A stretch of 64,000 bases of DNA from Nannochloropsis oceanica (lineage: Eukaryota; Sar; Eustigmatophyceae; Eustigmatales; Monodopsidaceae), in contig CP038119.1 in assembly GCA_004519485.1 (NCBI GenBank), positions 248,001 to 312,000 on the forward strand, written 5' to 3'. The translations under genes and the position numbers were made by a program. Of the stretch, positions 7,541 through 13,585 are shown piece after piece. Position 1 is the stretch's first letter, and every line of letters starts with the position of its first letter. Under the pieces are notes generated by a model that was not told where the DNA came from, did no database searches, and saw only the letters and a list, made by a program, of their open reading frames with translations.

Positions 7541-10500
7541 TCATCCTTGCGTCTGCCCCTCGTTCCCCACCTCCTCCCCGACTCCAGCCGCCACCTCCGC
7601 GACCTTTTCTTTTTCTTTCATACGCCTGATCTTCCTCTCTCTCTCCTCCTGAGCCACTTTCACCGACTCCTCTTCCTCCTTCCCCCCCTCAATCATCACC
7701 GTCGCAATAAATGTGATGGTGTCCGACCACGCCTCATGGATCTCCCGCGTCATCCCCTCTTCACCCAAGTGGGATCTCAAAGCCCAAAGCATCGCCTCCC
7801 CCACATGCCCGTAATTCTCTGCACTGGCTCCGTAATAATAGTGCCGCCTCCCCAATTGCAGCAGCCGACTCCGCAAACTGGATGGATCGAGCAATTCTTG
7901 AATCACTACCACCAATGCCGAGATCAAGGAGGCATGTTGGTGCTTCATGTCCGTGTTGCGGAAATGCAGCTGTAGTTCCGGATGTTGGGCAAACAAATGA
8001 CAGTAGAAACCGGCACAAAATTCATCGGCTGCGGGTTTAATGACCTCGAACGAAGACTGAACGAGCTGAATCGCCTGAGGACCGAGGACGCCTCCGGCGT
8101 GGGTGTAAAACGTGAGTTTCTCGGTGCGCTGAGGAGGAAGAGGGGGGGGAGGGGGCGAGGAGAGAAGGGAGGAGGTGGTGGAGAAGGAAATGGAGGAGGA
8201 AGAGGAGGGAGTGGGGGCCGCGGCCGCCGCAGGAAGATGGGTGGAGGTGAAAGAGGACGGGGAGGCACCCGAGGGACAAGAGGATGAGGAGGAGGGGGAA
8301 GAGGAGGAAGGGACGACCACAGGGCATGCACTTTTAGATGAGGATGGGGGAGGGTTTGAACACTGATCTCGCTGCTGCTGCTGCTGTTGGACCAGCTGTT
8401 GGTGACGATAGGATGATGCCCGAAGCGACGAGGAGGCGGAGGAGGCGGAGGAGGAAGTGGAGAAGGAGGCCGAGGAGGAGGAGGGGGAGGAGGAAGGGCG
8501 CTGCCGGCCGGGCAGCGGCATGGGGGTCGAGGACCCCTCGGTGTGAGGGAGGGCAGGTGCATGCATGGCTGGGAAGTGGCGGTGGTTGTTGTTGTTGTTG
8601 TTGTTGTTGTTGTTGTTGTTGTTGTTGTTGTCGTTGTTGTCGTTGTTGTTGTTGTTGTTGTTGTTGTTGTTGTTGTTGTTGTTGTTGTTGTTGTTGTTGT
8701 TGTTGTTGTTGTTGTTGTTGTTGTTGTTGTTGTTGTTGTTGTTGTTGTTGTTGTTGTTGTTGTTGTTGTTGTTGTTGTTGTTGTTGCTGCTGCTGCTGCT
8801 GCTGCTGCTGCTGCTGCTGCTGCTGCTCCCGTAATGCTTGTGGTGGTGGCCATCACTCCCTGAGGAGGAAGCGAGGGAGGAAGGAAGCAAACTCGGGCTG
8901 TACACGCCCTTCTGCTGGTGCTGCTGCTGCTGCTGCAGCATGATGGATGACGAAGGGATCTGTGGCAAATGGTGCCCTCCCGTCGCGATTATCCTCAAGT
9001 TTTCCGCCAACGCCGATAGCTGGCCATGGGAAGGTCGACGGGATAAGGGAGACTCTCCTCCTTCTCCTCCCCATCGCCCTCCACCAGCATCACGCCTCTT
9101 CCCCCCCTCCCCTCCTCCCCCTGCAAAAGGAGGAAATCCCATCATCATCGCATCGGCATTCGTCGCTGCCTTCTCCCCCCCGCCGTGGCTCCTCTTCCTA
9201 CTCGGGGTCAAGCTCCCAGACCCCCCATCCCTCCCTCCTTCCCTCCCTCCTTCCCTCCTTCCTTCTCGACCGGTGCGATACTGCAACTGGGGATGGTCGG
9301 GCGAGACGGACGAGCCCAAGACGAGGGAGGAAGAAGACAGGGGGACCGTGCCAGCTAGGGTCACCACGCGGGTCAAAGAGGGGGTTACGGGAGAGGGGCA
9401 GTTCAGATTCAAAGCCCGCATCTGCCAGGAAGGGGAGGGCGAAGGGGAGGCGCCCGGGGAGGAAGGGCCCGAGGAGGAAATGGAGGAATTGAGGCTGGCG
9501 TAGGCACTGACTTGCCGACTGCAGCCCCGACTGCTTCTCCTGCTGCTGCTCCGCGAGTGACTGCGCTCGGTGAGATTCTCGAAAAGTAGAGTACGATAGT
9601 TGTACCGTGGAGACTCCGTCTCGAGCGTAACTTGTAACGGTTGAATGGCTCCCGGCCCATAACTTCTGCTGCCGTTGCTGTTGCTGCTAATACTGCTACC
9701 GCTGTTGGTGCTCTTGTTATTGTCGTGGCTGGTGGGAGCAGCGGGGAGGATGAAAGGAAGGGAGCGAGAAAGAGGAACGGGAGGAGGAGGGGGAGGGGGG
9801 CAGGAGGTAGCGGGCCCTAGGGAGAGGATGGGGAGAGGACGAGAAGTAGTAGTGCTGCTGCTGTTGTTATTGTCATCGTTGTTGTTGCTGCTGCTACAGC
9901 TATCCTTGGTGTTTGTCATTCCCTTCATCTCATCTTGCCCGTCTTCTGCTATTGCTGCTGCTGCTGCTTCTGCTTCCTGCACTGCCATCTCCTGCACAAT
10001 TTCTGAGGGCCAGACAAAGAACCGCAACCGCTCATGTTCCGGCTTCAGGGCGGGAGGGAGGACAAGGGGGGGAGGCGGCAGGTCCTCAGCCAAAGCCTCC
10101 GCCTCCTTCATCAACGCACCGAAGAGTACCCCTTCACTCTCATCCTCCCACGCCGCCACCTCCCTGCTCACCTTCCCTCCCTCCCTCCTCCCCACCCGCC
10201 CAGCTTGCGCCCTTTCCTCCCCCTTCTCACGCCCCTCCTCCTCCTCCTCCTCCTCCTCCTCCTCCTCCTCCTCCTCCTCCTCCCCTTCCCCCTGACTCCC
10301 TTTTCTTGTCTTCCCAAAAATCCAACTCCCCAACCATTTCCTCCCCGGGGCTAGACCATACTGCTGCCAGTGCCGCCATTCTCCCGTCCTCTCATTACAG
10401 CGATAATACGGAAGAAATGCATACCCCTTGTCCGCGACAAAATGTACGGCACTTATGATGTAATCCACCTCGACATCCGAATGGTAATAACTCAGGCTGA

Positions 10501-13500: not shown

Positions 13501-13585
13501 GATGACGATGAGGGTCGTCAAGTGGCGGAGGGGCAGGGAGAGGGGTTTCCAGACTTCCTGTCTCATCTTCGTCGACGTCCATCAT
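7541..13585 (-). CDS. Class V aminotransferase fused to a globin domain
   Basis: Five exons: 13585-13052, 12950-12142, 11954-11470, 11255-10855, 10630-7541. All phases match and the product is about 1,772 aa. Residues about 150-830 form a PLP-dependent class V aminotransferase/cysteine-desulfurase-like fold: YADWTASGRSL, YGNTHTTTSITGLQT, KVGTFTAASNITGI, the lysine motif FFSGHKFVGGPGT (Lys about 604), SRGGCQCAGPYARRLLG and LRPGFSRLSLSYYHSDVEVD. The last exon continues without a stop through about 750 low-complexity residues, including poly-Glu, poly-Ser and about 65 Asn. It then enters a globin domain at about residues 1580-1725. The globin shows Phe CD1 in LHFRNTD, a possible E7 Gln in MKHQHAS and a proximal His in LGRRHYYYGASAENYGHVG, as in bacterial-type and flavohemoglobin globins. 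Substrate and role are unknown. A start upstream of 13585 is possible. Confidence 0.82.
8586..8826 (-). repeat. (AAC)n/(AGC)n tract encoding poly-Asn and poly-Ser
   Basis: On the plus strand this is a GTT run (about 8586-8784, with two GTC interruptions) followed by a GCT run (about 8785-8826). In the fusion gene's frame it reads AGC repeats (Ser), then about 65 AAC repeats (Asn, with two Asp). It sits inside the linker before the globin domain. Confidence 0.95.
10231..10283 (-). repeat. (GAG)n poly-Glu tract in the fusion gene
   Basis: A CTC run on the plus strand, read as GAG repeats, encoding about 17 Glu just after the aminotransferase domain. It marks the start of the low-complexity linker. 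Confidence 0.9.
12350..12400 (-). repeat. CAA/CAG tract encoding poly-Gln in the aminotransferase
   Basis: A GTT-rich run on the plus strand, read in the frame of exon 2 as CAA/CAG, encoding about 20 Gln. A second run at about 12688-12726 encodes a shorter poly-Gln. Both are insertions between conserved blocks of the PLP fold. Confidence 0.9.

Follow-up and report, generated by a model that had tools for sequence, protein, structure and literature searches.

In the analysed window (64,000 nucleotides of a contig of Nannochloropsis oceanica, taken from an assembly of 29.26 Mb in 32 contigs), a single gene on the minus strand very probably encodes one fused protein, in which a class V PLP-dependent enzyme is followed by a globin, as judged from the sequence. 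The gene at 13585-7541 comprises five exons that read in one frame and give 1772 residues and a stop codon (Table 1). Its introns of 101, 187, 214 and 224 bp are all of the GT...AG type, and the frame is kept across the joins. The first residues of exon 5 are SRGGCQCAGPY, and a TGA stop follows the globin domain. The translation start at 13585 is not certain, since an ATG at 13852 lies upstream and in frame and could add 89 residues of basic, Ser-rich character. These additional residues, within 13585-13894 on the minus strand, could represent a targeting sequence. Long Gln and Ser/Asn repeats are also found in frame on this strand, at 12300-12731 within the PLP fold and at 8590-8830.

Table 1. 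Features of the enzyme-globin gene, with positions in the window and residue numbers counted from the start at 13585.
Feature	Position	Strand	Remarks
Exon 1	13052..13585	-	Residues 1-178; N-terminal region and start of the class V domain (YADWTASGRSLRFIEDFMREE)
Exon 2	12142..12950	-	Class V domain; Gln/Ser-rich insert at about residues 252-394
Exon 3	11470..11954	-	Class V domain; Asp490 (PLP) and Lys604 (PLP Schiff base), aligned to cysteine desulfurases
Exon 4	10855..11255	-	Class V domain, as far as NDLFGIQ; Pfam Aminotran_5 match
Exon 5	7541..10630	-	3090 bp, single open frame: class V end, linker, globin, TGA
Cys748-Gln-Cys750 in RGGCQCAGPY	10610..10618	-	Both Cys invariant in 13 bacterial relatives
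C-terminal class V part in exon 5	9998..10630	-	Extension ends LRFFVWPSEI (bacterial LRWFPLP)
Candidate in-frame intron, 2043 bp	8129..10171	-	Donor-like AAG/GTGAGC, acceptor-like CCTCCTCAG
Linker, low-complexity	8129..9997	-	About residues 955-1578 (~620 residues); long Asn repeat
Globin domain	7672..8092	-	About residues 1590-1730; Pfam Globin, PDB matches
Tyr1619, B10	8003..8005	-	Aligned to Tyr29 of Hell's Gate globin I
Phe1633, CD1	7961..7963	-	Alignment to solved globins
Gln1641, E7	7937..7939	-	Aligned to Gln50 of Hell's Gate globin I; His1640 and His1642 on either side
His1673, F8, proximal heme ligand	7841..7843	-	Alignment to solved globins

The linker between the two domains is dominated by few amino acids (about 22% Ser, 13.6% Asn and 10% Pro). 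Over exon 5, the frame of the gene contains no stop codon, while the two other minus-strand frames contain 32 and 25. For the linker alone (9997-8129), the three frames give 0, 15 and 12. Dinucleotide shuffles of exon 5, of 10300-8134 and of 10300-8830, the latter excluding the long Asn repeat, showed mean numbers of 23.8, 13.3 and 13.0 stops, and for none of these regions was any of the 1000 shuffles free of stops. Based on the stops in the other frames and on these shuffles, the open frame of exon 5 exceeds the chance expectation. The original prediction had placed both domains in one open frame and had named a stop in the linker as evidence to the contrary; the placement is well supported by the uninterrupted reading of exon 5, and no in-frame stop was found over 9997-8129.

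Another explanation would be that the locus gives two products. In this case, a promoter or a splice site within the linker would lead to a separate globin transcript, the enzyme transcript would end earlier, and the open frame would be a by-product of stop-poor simple sequence. Such an arrangement would be in line with the acceptor-like polypyrimidine tract and CAG that end at 8129, directly 5' of the globin, with the simple repeats that make up most of the linker and with bacterial relatives that comprise no globin. It is at variance with the 15 and 12 stops in the other linker frames and with the complete lack of stop-free shuffles. Furthermore, the frame of the enzyme meets its first stop only at 7543, so that an enzyme-only product needs another event, and the best donor for the acceptor at 8129, located at 10171, shares its phase, so that the domains would stay joined. 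Two products from this locus are thus considered improbable, and the preferred reading is that of one joined protein.

The same pair of sites raises the question of an intron within exon 5. Between 10630 and 8135, 15 donor-like sites were counted, among which AAG/GTGAGC at 10171 is the best-looking one by eye, no scoring model being applied. Together with the acceptor-like CCTCCTCAG, whose end lies at 8129, this site would preserve the reading frame. Splicing between these positions would drop residues 897-1577, which cover the low-complexity linker and the last part of the enzyme extension, and would shorten the tether while leaving the enzyme joined to the globin. Compared to the other introns of this gene (101-224 bp), the candidate of 2043 bp is far longer, and a published mean intron length of 370.9 bp (PMC6610115) is far below it as well. 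If the candidate intron is used, exon 5 would be interrupted in such a transcript. Consequently, the earlier description of an uninterrupted last exon holds with respect to stop codons over the 3090 bp, but is qualified by this possible in-frame intron. Since the splice candidate alters the length of the linker and not the joining, our estimates for the fusion and for a coupling of its parts are unchanged.

For the enzyme part, the Pfam model Aminotran_5 (PF00266) was detected in the frames of exon 3 (E 2.9e-9) and exon 4 (E 2.9e-8), and the scores in these single exon frames (36.8 and 33.6 bits) are above the cut-off of 21.5. Weak matches to TRM13 and PH_4 in the frame of exon 2 were discounted, as they are below their own cut-offs. 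Among solved structures, the enzyme core is closest to cysteine desulfurases, most of them SufS-type, with 5b7s as the best match (E 3e-21). In the alignment with SufS-type (group II) cysteine desulfurases, the PLP lysine, the aspartate and the cysteine of the R-x-G-x-x-C-A active-site loop are shared, corresponding to Lys604, Asp490 and Cys750. These three residues would act as PLP lysine, PLP aspartate and loop cysteine. A comparison with 13 bacterial relatives showed that 93 of their 102 invariant columns are kept in the algal enzyme, among them Asp490, Lys604, Cys748 and Cys750, while 9 differ.

In contrast to SufS, the algal enzyme comprises its own C-terminal extension, large inserts and the fused globin, and its score is below the cut-off. 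With the NCBIfam SufS model TIGR01979, the core without inserts reached 115.1 bits compared to a cut-off of 475.1, and an assignment as SufS according to the NCBIfam rule was rejected. Since the score is that far below the SufS cut-off, the family does not fix the reaction of the enzyme. It can be regarded with little doubt as a SufS-like PLP enzyme, belonging to a bacterial-type family of its own, as far as sequence comparison can indicate. The expectation of a class V enzyme that handles sulfur is thereby strengthened, both by the SufS-type structures among the nearest matches and by the kept loop cysteine. Elsewhere in the genome, separate genes were found for SufS (TIGR01979, 581.8 bits, cut-off 475.1) and IscS (TIGR02006, 653.5 bits, cut-off 643.2). 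Because of these, a role of the class V enzyme as housekeeping desulfurase appears unlikely.

A second copy of the enzyme family, rich in introns, lies right at the beginning of contig C2 (L056, C2:1-1563, minus strand). Four of its exon segments are 45-82% identical to the gene in the window, and a fifth alignment (28%) crosses an intron. By reading, this copy is without the Gln-rich insert, and the contig end cuts it before the C-terminal half, which was not found elsewhere in the genome. Within the window itself, a frame at 44372-46009 on the plus strand reads as a ribonucleotide reductase (RNR_Alpha E 6e-41) into which a B12-dependent domain is inserted (RNR-II_ins_dom E 7e-9).

The closest relatives by sequence belong to a bacterial family annotated as 'aminotransferase class V-fold PLP-dependent enzyme' and otherwise without a name, which is found in Myxococcota, Rhodococcus, Roseobacteraceae and Rhizobium. 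A protein from Myxococcales showed 52% identity in the best segment and covers residues 1-452 of the 453-residue algal query. The best PDB matches of the bacterial relative are likewise cysteine desulfurases, mostly of the SufS type. The Myxococcales protein matches 79 plasmid records and, at E <= 1e-40, 105 of the 282 genomes scanned from its own phylum. The long form of this bacterial family comprises the same C-terminal extension as the alga, whereas shorter forms from rhizobia and Paracoccus are without the extension. Where the long form ends with LRWFPLP, the algal protein reads LKPEHERLRFFVWPSEI. Since the extension is common to the bacterial long forms, the boundary of the enzyme is placed at about residue 954. 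The class V unit therefore continues beyond LRPGFSRLSLSYYHSD to about position 9998 of the window, and the original assumption that it ends at SYYHSD has to be corrected.

The ends of the bacterial proteins also give an indication of how the fusion was composed. Among the best 30 of 107 Myxococcota matches, which were inspected for their C-terminal ends, all 30 frames stop 160-197 residues beyond the first residue of CAGPY, compared to more than 1000 residues by which the algal protein goes on past this motif. The remaining matches, some with long open frames, were covered by the globin scan. Since all 30 inspected relatives stop at the end of the enzyme, the globin and the tether look like an addition to a bacterial-type enzyme. 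Among the 282 genomes of this one phylum, the enzyme was found in 105, a Pfam globin in 34 and both in 16, compared to 12.7 expected under independence. In none of the 282 genomes is a globin near the enzyme gene; one pair shares a contig at a distance of about 104 kb. No Pfam globin was detected in the genome of the nearest bacterial relative, and no globin is annotated beside the enzyme in the 7 of 79 plasmid regions examined, whose gene tables are incomplete. In these bacteria, the genes for enzyme and globin are not linked. No relatives of the enzyme core or of the globin were found on the viral contigs scanned.

Two Roseobacteraceae plasmids (L019 4989-9651 and L020 4986-9627) show an operon-like row around the enzyme gene, including an ABC transporter, an FAD oxidoreductase, an L-2-amino-thiazoline-4-carboxylic acid hydrolase and an aminoacylase. 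This row hints at a use of sulfur amino acids. For the other 5 of the 7 plasmid records examined, the neighbours of the enzyme differ.

In a tree of 35 enzyme rows, from which the fetched rows L032, L034, L046 and L047 were left out by a motif filter, the algal row groups with 27 Myxococcota rows (fork 88/97), and two Rhodococcus rows are nearby (fork 87/57). The algal branch is very long (3.95). In view of this branch and of the fact that neither fork is starred, no bacterial donor for the algal enzyme is claimed.

The C-terminal domain was detected by the Pfam model Globin (PF00042) with an E of 1.4e-12 and 48.5 bits, compared to a cut-off of 22, and covers profile positions 2-117 of 117. 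Together with Phe1633 and His1673, this confirms, at the level of the sequence, the complete globin with Phe CD1 and proximal His that had been predicted before. The best PDB match is the Hell's Gate globin HGbRL (3.2e-14), followed by HGbI (5e-14), Vitreoscilla hemoglobin (1.6e-9) and a flavohemoglobin (2.3e-9); 3wfw, 3s1i and 1vhb are among the matching structures. The globin part of the NO synthase entry 9q05 matches as well (E 3e-7), which is presumably SyNOS. Structure prediction from the single globin sequence reached mean pLDDT values of 61.1 for the whole tail and 49.0 for the trimmed form, both too low for the models to be used. Altogether, we are confident that the domain would be a heme-binding globin of the flavohemoglobin/single-domain class.

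A C-terminal FAD/NAD reductase domain, by which flavohemoglobins are recognised, was not found in the five exon frames scanned, and Globin was the only Pfam match of exon 5 at E <= 0.1. A reading as NO dioxygenase needs an electron source, and the reductase that could be expected here is the domain missing from these frames. A Roadblock domain was not seen in the five exon frames by Pfam either. Two further globin exons were detected by Pfam in the genome, on contigs C15 and C12, which in local alignments showed 31% and 39% identity to the fused globin over 106 and 44 residues, respectively. A near copy of the fused globin was not found elsewhere in the genome. The frame on C12 (L055 3684-4973, minus strand) reads as a flavohemoglobin with the end of a globin and a reductase part, and another globin exon is located at L054 4242-4805. 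A supply of NO to the globin by an NO synthase of the same genome is unsupported, as no match to PF02898 was found.

Globins are known as fusions to reductases, sensor outputs and cyclases. The best-matching globins, namely the Hell's Gate globins HGbI and HGbRL, Vitreoscilla hemoglobin and the flavohemoglobins (E 3e-14 to 2e-9), share Tyr B10, Gln E7, Phe CD1 and His F8 with the algal globin. In contrast to these, the partner in the alga is a class V PLP enzyme, and neither an FAD/NAD reductase nor a Roadblock domain was seen. Fusions of a globin to an NO synthase exist in Synechococcus (SyNOS) and in some diatoms (PMC6104048, PMC7554344). They likewise combine a globin with a metabolic enzyme, also in diatoms, but their globin is N-terminal to the NOS domains and their enzyme produces NO, whereas in the alga the globin follows the PLP enzyme. 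Large chimeric globins of more than 1000 residues have been described for the cryptomonad Guillardia theta, with three globin domains per protein and a putative cytochrome b5 N-terminus (PMC4101818); that paper mentions no aminotransferase. In the open-access papers searched, no description was found of a globin joined to a class V aminotransferase, a cysteine desulfurase or a PLP enzyme, and in PMC7554344 the word 'aminotransferase' appears in reference titles only. The original statement that no described protein joins the two domains agrees with this search, which covers part of the literature. Both domains are of known kinds and chimeric globins are known, while this pairing is new to the literature searched.

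As the best overall explanation, we tentatively suggest, at somewhat less than even confidence, a chimeric protein in which a tethered globin protects or regulates PLP chemistry of the cysteine type. In the large chimera given by the single gene, a globin would form the C-terminus, connected by a long low-complexity tether to a class V PLP enzyme resembling SufS. The enzyme would act on an amino acid similar to cysteine and remove its sulfur, or another leaving group, through the cysteine of the RGGCxCAGPY loop. The tethered globin may bind O2 or NO near the enzyme and would then either shield the reactive persulfide and cysteine from these gases or signal their presence to the enzyme. The original prediction had put forward gating, protection or the delivery of O2 as putative mechanisms. 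That the globin scavenges or senses O2 or NO on behalf of the enzyme is conceivable, albeit not probable. Within this possibility, a tether of about 620 residues fits better to local scavenging than to a rigid allosteric contact, while a shorter, spliced tether would fit better to direct contact.

It may also be the case that the two parts are joined but independent, the globin being a passenger or serving another partner and the PLP enzyme performing its usual task. The very long low-complexity linker and the missing link between enzyme and globin genes in the 282 bacterial genomes point in this direction. Conservation is seen at the PLP site and at the four positions checked in the heme pocket, so that neither domain looks decayed, which speaks against a mere passenger. 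Independent parts are considered unlikely, although they deserve more weight than two separate products.

As a third alternative, the globin could act on the product by binding or oxidising sulfide or persulfide once the PLP enzyme has released it. The active site resembling that of cysteine desulfurases is compatible with this, and tethering would favour a hand-over. However, the combination of Tyr B10 and Gln E7 is that found in the pocket of Hell's Gate globin I, which binds O2. The sulfide-binding hemoglobin of clams has a different residue at B10, which was counted against an action on sulfide. For HGbI, it has been described that Tyr B10 and Gln E7 bind O2 (PMC4476040, PMC11203436). An action of the globin on sulfide is accordingly regarded as very unlikely, and protection or regulation by a globin that would bind O2 or NO is retained as the favoured, tentative explanation.

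The most specific form of this explanation is a heme-regulated sulfur enzyme, in which O2 or NO bound to the globin would control or protect the desulfuration of cysteine in the same chain; taken by itself, this form is rather unlikely. For Nannochloropsis oceanica, basic genetic tools exist (PMC9449291). The globin-NOS fusions provide a precedent for a globin built into a metabolic enzyme (PMC6104048, PMC7554344). If the heme-regulated reading is true, the protein would represent a direct molecular link from gas sensing to the mobilisation of sulfur in a photosynthetic alga. If both parts cooperate, it would be a chimeric globin through which the chemistry of sulfur or amino acids is linked to O2 or NO.
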